DNA of 32,151 nucleotides from Methanosarcinaceae archaeon (GTDB lineage Archaea > Halobacteriota > Methanosarcinia > Methanosarcinales > Methanosarcinaceae): positions 1 through 32,151 of the forward strand of contig JAUWQD010000028.1 in the NCBI GenBank assembly GCA_030611265.1, given 5' to 3'. The notes beneath the pieces were generated by a model, which did no database searches, had not been told where the DNA came from, and saw nothing but the letters and a program-made list of their open reading frames with translations. Position 1 is the stretch's first letter. The number at the start of each line of letters is the position of its first letter. Of the stretch, positions 8,258 to 32,135 are shown piece after piece. Position numbers and translations under genes: made by a program.

Positions 8258-8440
8258 AAAAAGAAGTTTCTTTAACGTTGTTTGGGTACATCACTATTGA
8301 GGGATATATTGTCAAATATATGGAAATGCATTGCCAGAATAAATGGACAGGATGAACAGGATTGACAGGATACAAGTGGGCCGCCCCATCCTGTAAATCC
8401 TGTTCATCCCGTCAAATATTGATCTACTCAATATTGAAGA
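8258..8440 (+). repeat. Dispersed repeat R1, copy 3 (long form)
   Basis: It starts like copy 2 (TTTCTTTAAC, then TACATCACTATT and GGATATATTGTCAAA) and continues through GGACAGGATGAACAGGAT to a second half that aligns with the minus strand of 31231-31340. In one frame this second part reads GQDEQD, a stop, then TSGPPHPVNPVHPVKY, against GPDEQDTSGLPHFVNPIDPV in copy 4. It contains imperfect internal repeats of ACAGGAT. Point indels break the frame. Confidence 0.65.
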
Positions 8441-8471
8441 GATCAAAAAAAGATTAAATTGACAGCACCCC

Positions 8472-9416: not shown

Positions 9417-9449
9417 CAAGAAAATTCTCCCTTCGGTCGAATTTACTTG
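9417..9449 (-). repeat. Covarying hairpin repeat R2, copy A
   Basis: On the minus strand, outer stem CAAG:CTTG, inner stem AATTC:GAATT and apical pair CC:GG close a GAA loop, with GA/GA between inner stem and apex. The outer stem differs from the CGAG:CTCG of other copies by a compensated pair. It lies 30 bases after the purD stop and 40 bases before the argF start. The AT palindrome that accompanies other copies is not evident. Confidence 0.7.
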
Positions 9450-9478
9450 ATGCATACAATTTTACAAATTATATAGGA

Positions 9479-18288: not shown

Positions 18289-18367
18289 CTACTTGACTGT
18301 ACTAAATTTGCATTACAATAAGCACAATCGCATAAAACGTTTTCTTATGCAAATACCTTTTGTGATA

Positions 18368-18428
18368 GTATATAATTTATAGAATTATATAGTTCGAGTT
18401 AATCCGACCGACAGGGAGGATTTTCTCG
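18368..18428 (+). repeat. Repeat R2, copy B1 (AT palindrome plus hairpin)
   Basis: A 25-bp AT palindrome (18368-18392) is followed by a hairpin at 18395-18428: outer stem CGAG:CTCG, inner stem AATCC:GGATT, GA/GA internal loop, and CC:GG apex with a four-base loop. The inner stem differs from the common AATTC:GAATT by a compensated pair. Confidence 0.75.
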
Positions 18429-18430
18429 TA

Positions 18431-18488
18431 GTATATATTTTATAAGTATATAGTGCGAGTTAACGCGAACGAAGTGAGCGTTTTCTCG
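18431..18488 (+). repeat. Repeat R2, copy B2 (AT palindrome plus hairpin)
   Basis: Directly follows B1 in the same orientation. The AT part is at 18431-18452 and the hairpin at 18456-18488: outer stem CGAG:CTCG, inner stem AACGC:GCGTT, GA/GA internal loop, apex AC:GT closing GAA. Both inner and apical stems differ from the common form by compensated changes. It ends 20 bases from the nadX stop. Confidence 0.75.
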
Positions 18489-19347: not shown

Positions 19348-19420
19348 CGAGAAAATTCACCCTCCGGTCGAATTAACTCGCACAAGGTATTTATAAAATG
19401 TATACTATAAAAATATAGTA
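19348..19420 (-). repeat. Repeat R2, copy C, in the nadX leader
   Basis: On the minus strand an AT-rich segment (19389-19420) containing TATA-like sequence precedes a hairpin at 19348-19380: outer stem extended to GTGCGAG:CTCGTAC with one G-T wobble, inner stem AATTC:GAATT, apex CC:GG closing GGA. The internal loop is GA/GT here rather than GA/GA. Confidence 0.7.
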
Positions 19421-22909: not shown

Positions 22910-22996
22910 CATCCATATTCCTATGATCGATATTTCGATATGAATGTCGATCAAATATTCCTTTTTTGACAATTATTAATGCCATATTTTGTTAAA

Positions 22997-23056
22997 GTAT
23001 ATAATTAGAATTATATAGTGCGAGTTAATTCGACCGAAGGGAGAATTTTCTCGCAC
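22997..23056 (+). repeat. Repeat R2, copy D (AT palindrome plus long hairpin)
   Basis: An AT palindrome (about 22997-23017) is followed by a hairpin with a 7-bp outer stem GTGCGAG:CTCGCAC (23018-23056), inner stem AATTC:GAATT, GA/GA internal loop, and CC:GG apex closing GAA. This is the most complete copy. It lies 110 bases after the tubulin-like gene and 87 bases before the permease start. Confidence 0.8.
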
Positions 23057-23142: not shown

Positions 23143-23594
23143 ATGGGTGAAAAACCTACGCTAAAGCGTGAACTTGGATTGTTTGAACTGATACTTAGTG
23201 GCATTGGAACAATCTTAGGTGCAGGAATATATGTCTTGCTTGGTAAAGCCGCAGGACTTGCCGGTGATGCCGTCTGGTTATCGTTCCTGTTCGCGTCCGT
23301 GGTTGCAGCACTTACAGGTATCAGTTACATGGAACTCACATCCATGTACCCAAAAGCCAGTGCAGAGTACATATATGTAAAAAATGCTTTTGGAAGTCGT
23401 TCCGCATTCGTTGTAGGGTTGCTGGTCATACTCGGGCTGATAATAGCGAATTCAACAGTTGCTCTTGGTTTTGCAGGATATTTCAGTGTGTTGTTCAACA
23501 CACCAATAATACCTACTGCTACTGTGTTGATCATGATATTTTCACTGGTACTCTTTATTGGCGTAAAACAATCCGTGCAGATAGTTGTGTTTAT
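23143..23594 (+). pseudogene. APC-family amino-acid permease, N-terminal part, interrupted by IS
   Basis: The first 150 codons encode the APC signature GLFELILSGIGTILGAGIYV, with KAAGLAGDAVWLSFLF, YMELTSMYPKASAEYIYVKN and further membrane helices. The frame meets an insertion sequence after VVF; in the current DNA it runs on into IS sequence and stops at 23700. Removing the IS and one TTTAT copy restores a continuous frame with the part at 25517-26339 (VVF then MTIIEVGGLL), giving about 424 residues. The family imports amino acids or amines. Substrate unknown. Confidence 0.9.
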
Positions 23595-25511
23595 CTTGAC
23601 TTTCAAAGATGTTATCAAAAACAGTACTGTGCGGCTATATAATTGTAGTCCCTATCAAAACATAAACTCTATTGCTATCGATTTGCTTAATTTCTCATGA
23701 ATTTCCCCAAATCCAACAAAGAAAACAATCGAGCTTGCATCACATCCATCTCTTCGACCATAATCTCAACTTTCCTACTAGATTTTTTCTGCACAAGAGC
23801 AAGACGAATATCCCTCAGCTCTTCCACAAGTTGTCCTAGACTCAATCCAATATGTTTGCATTTCCATGCCATATATCTATAGAAAATCATCCCAATAATG
23901 CATAAAAAAACATGTGCCCTGATATTAAAATCCGTATTATGATTGATTGGCCCGACCGGAACAAGAAGTACATCATTTAACAACTTGAAATCATCCTCAA
24001 CAAGATATTTTTGATTGTAAGTCTTTGCAATCTTCTCGGAATGCCAGTTTTTCAAATCAGTAAAAACAATCGTCTTTCCAAAACCTGCGTAGCGTATATT
24101 TTCTACATTTTCATTGATCCAGAACTTCAAAGTAGGTTTTTTCTTTCCTTTTGGTACCTCACCAACTTCATACTCAAACACTGATCTGAAATCCTTTCGT
24201 ATAATATCATTAAATTCCCTCACCACACTGTTTCGATCTCTTTCCTTTCCCCTGTTACTCTTCAATCGCCGCTCTAAATCTTCAAGTTTTAACACAATCT
24301 TTGCCTTACTATTCTCATAACTTTTCCTCTGCTTTTTACACGAAGCTTTATTGTAAAGAACAACAGTAGTAAACACAGTTCCAAAAAATTCATACTTTGT
24401 CCGGTAACCATAGATTTTATTGCTTTGTGGATTTGTATACAAATGTTTGTAATTTTCAAGCGGTATATTCAAAAGATCTTCAGCTTGATTGTGTTTTGCA
24501 GAAGCTACAATATGCATTTTAGACAATACGCCTTCAATGTTCACTTGGGAATTGTTGCCTTTATCAAAAACCAGAATCATGTCTTCAGTCGTTATTTTCA
24601 GATTGGTCAACCTTTCAGTAAGTGCACCCAACAAATCAGGGAATATCTTGGAATCGTGTTTGTTTCCTTCGTAAACTTCATGCATGAAGGGAACATTATC
24701 TTCAGACACAGCTAACCCCATACATACCTGTTTCATGTGATTTCTATACTGTTTGTTGTTCCCATTTTGTGGCAGTTCTTCCCCTTTTTTTATATAGTTG
24801 AACCAGTTTGTTTCATCGAGAAAAAGTATTTTGGGTGTTAGGCCTTTTTCGATAAGTATTTTGCACAAATCATCCTCAATTTTTTTGCTGGTTTCATGGT
24901 CTATGTATTTGTAATGGTTGAGAAAATTTTGACAAGTGAGTTTATGTGGAAATTTCCACATTAAACTCAATGAGGACTTATCAAACCACTTCTGCATAGC
25001 ATTTTCTGATAATGCTCCATCACATCGACCTATGATATTTAAGAGAAGATATTCACCAACCGACAGTCCTTCGATTTTCTTTTTGTCGGTGTGTTTGTTT
25101 ACGATATCAATGAAGTTCAATTCCTCGGATATGGATAGGAGAGCTGCTGTTTTCCCGTATTGGAATGATTTTAGTTTGATGTTAGGTAGTTCTTTTGATT
25201 TTCTCATGCATTCTATGATCGATTCTGTTGTTCCAAGATATTCTTGCCAGGTTCGTTTAATTTTTCCGTCTACCAAGTTGCGTTCAGAGGCATACCAATA
25301 AGTATGACCTTTCAGTTTTTTCTTTTCTAAAAATACCATGGCATATAATAGGGACTATACTTATATAAGTATTTTGTTATATTTCAAGTACAATATAGCC
25401 AAGATATTTAATTAAATAGTTAGGGACTAAGTATAGGGATGTGCAACGAAGGCGCATGATGTGGGTTTTTTTAAAAAATAAGATGTTTTTCAGTTATCTT
25501 TGAAAGTCAAG
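23595..25511. mobile_element. Complete IS1634-like insertion sequence, 1917 bp
   Basis: The 16-bp perfect terminal inverted repeats are CTTGACTTTCAAAGAT at 23595-23610 and its complement at 25496-25511. The flanking TTTAT occurs at 23590-23594 and 25512-25516, a 5-bp target duplication. It carries one leftward transposase gene. Intact ends, an intact transposase, a perfect duplication and an otherwise undamaged target gene point to recent insertion. The IS1634 label comes from transposase features and length. Confidence 0.92.
23687..25339 (-). CDS. IS1634-like DDE transposase
   Basis: This 550-residue transposase has no frameshift. N-terminal GHTYWYASERNLVDGKIKRT and WQEYLGT are typical of IS1634/IS4-group enzymes. 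The catalytic acids appear as D175 (ILFLDETNWF), D259 (MILVFDKGNNS) and a late Glu in TYNQKYLVEDDFKLLND. A basic, helical linker lies between the second Asp and the Glu. It starts 172 bases inside the right end of the element and stops 92 bases from the left end. Confidence 0.92.
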   Translation of the reverse strand: MVFLEKKKLKGHTYWYASERNLVDGKIKRTWQEYLGTTESIIECMRKSKELPNIKLKSFQYGKTAALLSISEELNFIDIVNKHTDKKKIEGLSVGEYLLLNIIGRCDGALSENAMQKWFDKSSLSLMWKFPHKLTCQNFLNHYKYIDHETSKKIEDDLCKILIEKGLTPKILFLDETNWFNYIKKGEELPQNGNNKQYRNHMKQVCMGLAVSEDNVPFMHEVYEGNKHDSKIFPDLLGALTERLTNLKITTEDMILVFDKGNNSQVNIEGVLSKMHIVASAKHNQAEDLLNIPLENYKHLYTNPQSNKIYGYRTKYEFFGTVFTTVVLYNKASCKKQRKSYENSKAKIVLKLEDLERRLKSNRGKERDRNSVVREFNDIIRKDFRSVFEYEVGEVPKGKKKPTLKFWINENVENIRYAGFGKTIVFTDLKNWHSEKIAKTYNQKYLVEDDFKLLNDVLLVPVGPINHNTDFNIRAHVFLCIIGMIFYRYMAWKCKHIGLSLGQLVEELRDIRLALVQKKSSRKVEIMVEEMDVMQARLFSLLDLGKFMRN

Positions 25512-25516
25512 TTTAT

Positions 25517-26386: not shown

Positions 26387-26842
26387 ATGGAATATACAAA
26401 AGGAACAATTGGAAGAGTGTTCACAGCAAGGGTTGACCACGGGGATGACCTGCTTGCCGAACTCGAAAAACTCGCAAAGGTTGAGAAAATAGGATCAGCA
26501 ATGTTTGTCCTGCTGGGCGCTGTAGGAAAAGCGAAACTTGTGACCGGACCAAAGGAAAACTCAATCCCACCCAATCCTATGTGGACAGAATACGATGATG
26601 TGCATGAAGTCGTGGGTGTTGGAAACATCTTTTTGGAAAATGGAAATCCAAAGATACATCTTCATACTGCTGCAGGTCGTGGCGAAAATGTGAAGGTTGG
26701 ATGTATGCGTGGCGAAAGTGAAGCGTTTATGGTGCTTGAAGTGTTTATATTGGAGATTAGCGGGATATCTGCAAGCCGTGTGTTTGACAGTACCAAAGGG
26801 TTTGCGCCAATACAATTCAAAAACCGAGAAAATCTTCGCTGA
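26387..26842 (+). CDS. PPC/DUF296-domain protein
   Basis: I start at ATG 26387 (MEYTKGTIGRVFTARVDHGD), with GAGG 8 bases upstream, rather than at the in-frame ATG 33 bases earlier. The 151-residue product is a stand-alone PPC domain (also DUF296): FTARVDHGDDLLAELEKLAK, MFVLLGAVGKAKLVTGP, HEVVGVGNIFLENG and the HLHTAAGRGENVKVG metal-site region. In plants the domain is fused to AT-hooks. The prokaryotic stand-alone form is a trimer of unknown role, often suspected of binding DNA or a small molecule. Its last codons form one arm of R2 hairpin copy E. Confidence 0.82.
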   Translation: MEYTKGTIGRVFTARVDHGDDLLAELEKLAKVEKIGSAMFVLLGAVGKAKLVTGPKENSIPPNPMWTEYDDVHEVVGVGNIFLENGNPKIHLHTAAGRGENVKVGCMRGESEAFMVLEVFILEISGISASRVFDSTKGFAPIQFKNRENLR

Positions 26843-26888
26843 CACTCAGATTAACTCGAACTATATAATTCTATAAATTATATACTAT
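26825..26888 (-). repeat. Repeat R2, copy E, overlapping the DUF296 stop
   Basis: On the minus strand an AT palindrome (about 26861-26888) precedes a hairpin at 26825-26858: outer stem CGAG:CTCG, TT/TT mismatches, inner stem AATCT:AGATT, GA/GA flanks and a divergent loop. The inner stem differs again from other copies yet still pairs. One arm lies inside the DUF296 coding end, the other after its stop. Confidence 0.65.
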
Positions 26889-26934
26889 AAAAAAAGTAAG
26901 CAAGATAGTACACAGGATTTTCAAATAATGGCGA

Positions 26935-28763: not shown

Positions 28764-28800
28764 TCTTCTCGCTTCTTCTTTTTTTATCTTACTTTTTTAT

Positions 28801-28850
28801 TGTATATAATTTATAGAATTATATACTACGAGAAAACAATTACTTCGTAT
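28801..28850 (-). repeat. Repeat R2-related palindrome, copy F (degenerate)
   Basis: The AT palindrome is almost identical to those of copies B1 and E and sits about 40 bases after the enolase stop. Next to it TACGA (28828-28832) and TCGTA (28845-28849) can pair, and TACGAGAAAA recalls one arm of the standard hairpin, but the inner stem is lost. The rest of 28764-28969 holds T-runs and a small GCCGC:GCGGC hairpin near 28890-28901, with no gene. Confidence 0.45.
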
Positions 28851-28969
28851 TATATATGCCTGCAATTTATTGGTGACGGAGAAACGCGCCGCCTGCGGCA
28901 GGTAGATTCATTGACTTCAAGACTATTACAACATGTTTAACTTATTATATCTGTTTCACGGTGTAAATT

Positions 28970-31230: not shown

Positions 31231-31387
31231 AAAATCGGATCTCCTCAACATTGAGTGGGTCAGTATTAGACGGGATCAATAGGATTTACAAAATGAGGCA
31301 AGCCACTTGTATCCTGTTCATCCGGTCCATTAATTCAGGTAATGTGATTGCATATCTGGCGATATATCCTGGATAGTGATGTGTCGA
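31231..31387 (-). repeat. Dispersed repeat R1, copy 4 (long form), next to the intron
   Basis: Read on the minus strand it begins ACATCACTATCCAGGATATA and continues to GGATGAACAGGATACAAGTG, then a tail shared with copy 3 (GTAAATCCT, GATCCCGTC, CTCAATRTTGARGAGATC). In frame it gives [11 protein letters not shown], then after a one-base shift GPDEQDTSGLPHFVNPIDPV and a stop. The group II intron ends at, or within a few bases of, its left border. Confidence 0.65.
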
Positions 31388-32135
31388 ATAAGAAAGAGCG
31401 GTTGCCCGCTCTCCCTCTTCTAAGAACCGTACGTGCGACTTTCACCGCATACGGCTCAAGCATTTCATAACCCTTTCTGTATCGGGCAGCAGTTTTGATT
31501 TACTGCTTTTGTAATTCTGGTTCGCAGCCTATTAACACATTGAGCGTCTGTAAGTCTCTCACCTTTCGGTGTAATTGAATTACTTACATTCATAAGTTTG
31601 CTTCCATTCATACAATGAAACACCCACAGTAAGTCTGCACCCTTTCGGGTTAAGGCAAATCTTGAACCTCTATACATCCCATTACAAGGTGTCATTCGCT
31701 TTTTACTGTCTCCTATACCCTCTTGTGCCATTGTTACTCCTCACGAAGTTCCTACCCAATTCTGGGGGCACATAGGGGTTACCAAGTTCTACATCACAAA
31801 TAATTGTGAAAGCCTTAGAAGCCATTTATAAACCGGAAACCGTTTGTCCATTCCCTAAAATGTTGGGTAAGCCACTATAGTCTGGTTTCATACCTTTTGG
31901 TTTAAGCGTATCAGTCCGATTTCGCTTATTCATCGTAACGATTCTTGCAATGGTTCGCATTATACTCTTCATAACTTTCTTATCCTAGCAGTTGGTCAGA
32001 ATTGGACTTTCTGACATTCCACGTTGTCCTATGGGCTTAACACCCCAGCGTTACCGCCAGCGCATTCCACAGTAGGATTACTCCGAATGGAAGGAGTAAC
32101 CATCAGGCAATTTGTGATGTAACTTCTTGTCGCAC
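31388..32135 (-). mobile_element. Group II intron lacking a reverse-transcriptase gene
   Basis: On the minus strand the element starts GTGCGACAAG (5' end at 32135), matching the group II 5' consensus. Its domain V is at 31424-31457: GAGCCGTATGCGG, a GAAA-type tetraloop region, then CGCACGTACGGTTC, with the GAGC...GTTC ends and small bulge of bacterial-type introns. Domain VI follows as a hairpin AGAGCGG-GCAA-CCGCTCT, and the 3' end is probably CTTAT at about 31388. The total of about 748 bases fits a ribozyme without an intron-encoded protein, and no reverse-transcriptase or maturase motifs are present. ORF-less group II introns are known from Methanosarcina. Mobility would need a protein supplied elsewhere. 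Exact boundaries are inferred. Confidence 0.82.

Follow-up and report, generated by a model that had tools for sequence, protein, structure and literature searches.

Integron attC sites are recognised by their structure on one folded strand, and arrays of them arise by insertion at a recreated site; in both respects they resemble the repeats described here, which we denote R2. The IS200/IS605 insertion sequences and their miniature derivatives resemble R2 in having left and right hairpins on one strand, in inserting 3' of a fixed target word with a related word at the 3' end and in leaving no appreciable target duplication. REP and REPIN sequences mobilised by RAYT (TnpA_REP) are known from bacterial systems (PMC3116915, PMC3733652, PMC6006769), and compensatory changes have been described in REPINs (PMC3116915). 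The phyla listed for tagged REPs are bacterial (PMC3733652), and in Archaea only Y1 proteins of the IS200 type (subclass 1.1) are reported (PMC6006769). In the open-licence literature, i.e. outside subscription journals, we found no earlier description of R2 in ANME or Methanosarcina.

The window analysed here, a stretch of 32,151 nucleotides, is contig C35 of the 2.86-Mb genome of a Methanosarcinaceae archaeon (G000). The initial annotation described six hairpins that share one layout of outer stem, TT/TT mismatches, inner stem, GA/GA, apical pair and short loop. All six are present and paired in this manner, and they are distributed over both strands. The unpaired GA/GA is retained in five of the six copies as had been noted, the exception (19348) having GA/TG. 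The TT/TT mismatches are valid as part of the layout, although they read TA/TT in the copy at 9417, and the apex described as CC:GG or AC:GT is in fact GT:GC (G-C plus G-T) in the copy at 26825. The AT palindrome reported next to most copies is found 5' of every copy on the GA/GA strand, and it is itself another hairpin, in which paired changes are seen as well (ATATA/TATAT, AATT/AATT, TG/CA and AATC/GATT). In other words, the reported hairpin (B) is half of a unit of about 60 nt (58-62 nt within the window) in which the AT hairpin (A) comes first. The unit consists of AG, hairpin A, 3 nt, and hairpin B ending in TTTTCTYG; written in full letters, AG is followed by A (e.g. TATATAATT-TATAG-AATTATATA), by a triplet such as GTG or GTT, and by B (CGAGTTAA..GA..GNA..GA..TTTTCTCG). 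The copies of the window and their targets are as follows.

9417..9477, minus strand: unit between the argF-type and purD genes; hairpin B at 9417-9449 (CAAG:CTTG variant); degenerate left end
18359..18366, plus strand: target octamer TTTGTGAT (fits TTTNTNRT), directly 5' of unit 1
18367..18428, plus strand: unit 1, consisting of AG, hairpin A (about 18369-18391) and hairpin B (18395-18428), with the 3' end TTTTCTCG
18422-18429: target of unit 2, TTTCTCGT, identical to the 3' end of unit 1 plus T
18430..18488, plus strand: unit 2, following unit 1 in head-to-tail order; hairpin B at 18456-18488
19348..19406, minus strand: unit 5' of the aspartate dehydrogenase gene; hairpin B at 19348-19380; target ATTTTTAT at 19407-19414
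22996..23053, plus strand: unit between the tubulin/FtsZ-family gene and the permease gene; target TTTGTTAA; hairpin B at 23021-23053, its stem extended by GTG..CAC to 23018-23056
26825..26886, minus strand: unit at the end of the PCC/DUF296 gene; hairpin B at 26825-26858; target TTTTTTAT at 26887-26894
28799..28848, plus strand: seventh, degenerate copy with hairpin A plus a hairpin B remnant (R1 score 30.4 bits)

Other features of the window are not part of R2. A GTGCCGC/GCGGC palindrome at 28874-28905 (GGTGACGGAGAAACGCGCCGCCTGCGGCAGG) has similar counterparts beside several R2 sites (e.g. L044, L074, L107 and L301), and these apparently form a second family of intergenic palindromic repeats. 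Inverted repeats of 93 nt at 8352-8444 and 31238-31330, 81% complementary to each other, probably belong to another dispersed family. An ORF of an IS1634-family transposase (23687-25339, within 23594-25513) splits an amino-acid permease gene that is uninterrupted in the sister genomes G003 and G005, and two Rfam group II intron matches (RF00029 and D1D4-7) lie on the minus strand at 31383-32098.

R2 is repeated far more often than expected by chance. The covariance-model search suggested in the initial annotation gave at least 142 matches in the genome at E<=0.001, and copies with both exact ends occur 52 times genome-wide as compared to 0 in a reversed-pattern control. The 777 kb that were examined closely contain 56 units at 44 sites, 12 of which are double. 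Units are carried by all six other genomes of the genus (at least 29-135 each), by three genomes of another family (30, 40 and 9 units) and, at 1-4 units, by one further family; 18 other Methanosarcinaceae genomes have 0-1 unit each. The copies of both these families, which belong to the same order, are diverged; hairpin A of the distant lineages is altered in both arms (e.g. GTACATAAAG..CTTTATGTAC) and hairpin B is of the CAAG:CTTG form, and the T-T and GA/GA mismatches are still kept in most copies. The named loci with a unit belong to Methanosarcinaceae archaea, including ANME-3 assemblies from HMMV, and the window genome is most probably an ANME-3-type Methanosarcinaceae, a marine archaeon that consumes methane. 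No real R2 copies were found in viruses, phages or plasmids, and among the matches listed in the contig pattern scan most of the non-archaeal ones are chance matches to the unit ends. A unit is also present at 1568-1600 of a contig binned as Candidatus Desulfaltia (L075, JAUSPN010000095.1), which comes from the same sample as an ANME-3-like bin; this may reflect misbinning or transfer to a sulfate-reducing partner.

The R2 units are mobile, as seen from orthologous sites that are empty, filled once or filled twice in the sister genomes. The site of unit 1 (18367..18428) is empty in G004 and G005 and paired units are also found in G001; the gap between nadA and the aspartate dehydrogenase gene holds two units in G000 and G001, one at a different point in G003 and none in G004 and G005. 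The unit 5' of the aspartate dehydrogenase gene (19348) is missing from G001, G002, G004 and G005, the site being filled in G003. Between the tubulin/FtsZ-family gene and the permease gene there is one unit in the window, two in G003 and none in G005, and the unit at 9417 is absent from G005. Outside the window, C8:63334 carries a unit in G000, the near-identical flanks in G003 enclosing a cleanly empty site, and at C8:61044 units are located at different points in G000 and G003 and are lacking in G001.

At the junctions the inserted sequence runs from AG to CTCG, and if the target is duplicated at all, this concerns a single base. The nucleotide 5' of the unit agrees with that 3' of it in 130 of 170 cases, a slight excess over the expected 119.6, and a 1-bp target duplication is possible. 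Immediately 5' of the unit, 72 distinct ANME-3 sites and 53 sites from other lineages have the motif TTTNTNRT, its fixed T positions being 87-93% T in the ANME-3 sites; nothing clear was seen further upstream in these left flanks. The left octamers of all six complete window units deviate from it by at most two mismatches (judged by eye). It is conspicuous that the unit's own 3' terminus and the T that follows it (TTTCTCGT or TTTCTTGT) together also fit TTTNTNRT, so that an insertion recreates the target, which accounts for the head-to-tail arrays. Adjacent units have the same B type in 7 of 35 pairs (5.4 expected), i.e. neighbours are hardly more alike than random units, which indicates that the arrays were built from independent units. 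Most units (51/56) lie outside ORFs, as compared to 13% of random positions.

The covariation in three separate helices that had been noted in the six window copies was confirmed with 121 different hairpin B sequences of the carrier genomes. We used a tree-based null (FastTree) that keeps the substitutions per branch and the column rates, which is our own approximation of R-scape. The inner-stem pair 10-24 reached E = 0 in 200 simulations, the apex pair 14-20 E = 0.005 and the outer-stem pair 2-32 E = 0.01. One pair per helix passes E<0.05, and the top five scores among all column pairs are stem pairs. The hairpin B interiors fall into about six alleles in which inner stem and apex change together. 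When the copy at 26825 is compared to G003, the flanks and most of hairpin A are nearly identical, and the hairpin B interior is another allele, replaced as a block. The interior at 18456 likewise differs in allele from that at the same site in G001, and at the 19348 site in G003 hairpin B is inverted and of another allele between the same flanks. Interior replacement thus outpaces the evolution of the flanks, which points to conversion-like replacement or to renewed insertion and loss; the block exchange and the one inversion suggest recombination or conversion beside transposition. By block exchange, among other routes, a site can acquire double changes in a single step. Together with the gain and loss of units at orthologous sites, this exchange shows mobility at the DNA level and can yield the covariation without selection on RNA.

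The initial annotation had read the covariation as selection on a folded RNA and not just on a DNA palindrome. One half of this claim holds. The stems do change in pairs, and the internal mismatches have been retained (GA/AG in roughly 80-95% of the distinct copies, in different families), so the fold of one strand matters and R2 is not a plain DNA palindrome. The RNA half is unsupported. A cis-acting or small-RNA hairpin (e.g. an mRNA 3'-end or 5'-UTR element) made from the GA strand and spread by duplication would agree with the significant covariation in three helices, with the conserved tandem GA and T-T (U-U) mismatches and with the stronger RNA folding of the GA strand (e.g. -16.0 vs -10.4 kcal/mol). 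However, in copies held as folded RNA the wobbles should outnumber the A-C mismatches, and this was not seen in the stems (38 vs 31, p = 0.47), whereas tRNA stems of the same genomes gave 20:6 (difference p = 0.06, the control being partly misparsed). Moreover, the GA strand is the non-transcribed, i.e. antisense, side in 24 of 30 units with co-directional genes (p = 0.0014 per unit, tandem units not being independent), 3' ends are not preferred, and orthologous genes differ in the presence of the unit. The Rfam search of the window, both at the gathering threshold and at a permissive one, gave no family match for the repeat and only chance matches at it. We therefore find the RNA explanation unlikely. 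The suggestion that the AT palindrome acts as a TATA-containing promoter was not borne out, since hairpin A is at no fixed distance from the genes (roughly 17-250 bp) and the same genes occur without a unit in sister genomes. A terminator was rejected as well, convergent gaps not being enriched (9/54 units vs 77/413 gaps). The loops of hairpin B are mostly GAA, GTA, GCA or GGA closed by C-G, on the same strand as GA/GA. GNA loops closed by C-G are unusually stable in single-stranded DNA and acceptable in RNA. The full unit folds as single-stranded DNA with z = -4.7. The DNA folding energies show little difference between the strands, hence it is conservation and not energy that picks the GA strand as the recognised one.

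Palindromic sites of a dimeric protein (e.g. a regulator or a nucleoid protein), spread and homogenised by gene conversion, would explain the intergenic position, the lack of a wobble preference and the replacement of interiors at fixed sites with intact flanks. Nevertheless, the conserved asymmetric mismatches and the differing interior alleles argue against one double-strand recognition sequence, an insertion reaction is needed to explain sites that lack the whole unit and have a target motif that is sharp and one-sided, and the window shows no preference for a functional class of genes, so we regard this explanation as quite improbable. It is also conceivable that the covariation is a by-product of palindrome mutation, in which template switching copies one arm onto the other without selection on folding. 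The paired changes do come in blocks, and the pair that varies most has hardly any wobble intermediates (129 Watson-Crick cells, 1 wobble and 4 others), but such a process would erase the T-T and GA/GA mismatches that persist across families. As the sole cause we hold it to be very improbable; it may still be a source of the double changes that selection for mobility acts upon.

R2 shares with the REP and REPIN sequences the general appearance of high-copy, clustered, non-coding intergenic imperfect hairpins of 30-70 nt, the compensatory stem changes, the presence/absence differences and possibly a short unpaired 5' tag (GTAG or GTGG at 0-2 nt from the hairpin in REPs, RTAG before hairpin A in R2). 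The letters before hairpin A are ATAG or GTAG in most ANME-3 copies and often RTTG in other lineages, position -2 being A in 70% and G in 19%. In contrast to REPs and REPINs, R2 is archaeal, has two unlike hairpins in direct order and an 8-nt T-rich target recreated by its 3' end, and forms head-to-tail arrays where BIME and REPIN pairs are inverted. Since we found neither a RAYT gene flanked by units nor inverted pairing, R2 is not classified here as a REP/RAYT system. It differs from the IS200/IS605 elements in that its hairpins are at the very ends and the right cut site is within the stem of hairpin B, its target has 8 nt instead of 4-5, and it does not share its ends with the resident IS200. 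In contrast to integron attC sites (PMC2727003), it has no cassette genes and a different core site. The CGTC-tagged REPs are similar in that they are abundant palindromic repeats reported without a dedicated transposase, but they have another tag and single hairpins and are bacterial (PMC3733652).

None of the 12 Y1 loci scanned was flanked by units. Units were seen there only at about 0.8 kb from one decayed copy (two units) and as a single weak partial match. Genes for Y1 transposases are found in most relatives, in carriers and non-carriers of units alike, and some unit-rich genomes had no intact Y1 gene (G002, an incomplete assembly). The resident Y1 protein is of the IS200 type (NF033573 127 bits; RAYT model 23 bits vs a cut-off of 80). 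The resident ANME-3 IS200 (about 520 bp) was rejected as an autonomous relative, as its ends (AATACTTTCAC.../...GGTATAGTGACT) are unlike the unit ends. Its TnpA subfamily (66% identity or more) is restricted to ANME-3 within Methanosarcinaceae and is also found in the other carriers and in genomes without units, which makes it a lead and not a link to R2. One TnpA gene of this type (G000:C60:5795-6199, L182) has an 89% identical copy in G025, a genome of another family, which suggests a transfer between lineages. PF04986 (Y2) matches occur in 3 of 33 other relatives vs 6 of 7 ANME-3 genomes. An IS91-type (Y2) enzyme was discarded as a candidate, since PF04986 is present in these six genomes but in none of the carriers G025, G028 and G032. 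As no transposase has been linked to R2, its membership in REP/RAYT or IS200/IS605 is not established.

We consider it probable that R2 is a mobile, non-autonomous DNA of about 60 nt recognised through its fold, and the best reading is that of REP/IS200-like non-autonomous elements recognised as folded single-stranded DNA. The observations (mobility by presence and absence, target, unit ends, arrays, covariation and block exchange) can be arranged into the following scheme. A trans-acting enzyme would recognise the unit as folded single-stranded DNA by the strand with the GA/GA and T-T mismatches and the GNA loops, cut behind TTTNTNRT on the left and, on the right, behind TTTCTYGT, which matches it, and join the unit behind another TTTNTNRT. 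As the 3' end recreates the target, further units could be added behind those already present, in the same direction, so that arrays build up. The stems would drift by paired changes because only copies with intact hairpins are amplified, and hairpin interiors would also be exchanged between copies as blocks. The chances of a single-strand mechanism appear about even to us, and by analogy the enzyme would be of the HUH/Y1 class. Only tentatively do we propose the more specific picture of an archaeal system, in several lineages of one order including anaerobic methane oxidisers, in which two-hairpin units of 60 nt move as single-stranded DNA and regenerate their own 8-nt target. Its enzyme would be neither a RAYT nor an IS200 whose ends match, and hairpin interiors would be swapped like cassettes, inversion included.

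When the repeat copies of a single genome covary, this is thus not in itself evidence for a functional RNA. Since presence and allele vary between close relatives, the units could serve as strain markers for uncultured ANME. Finally, an abundant archaeal counterpart of REP sequences with a defined target offers a new setting in which to test what moves short palindromic repeats.
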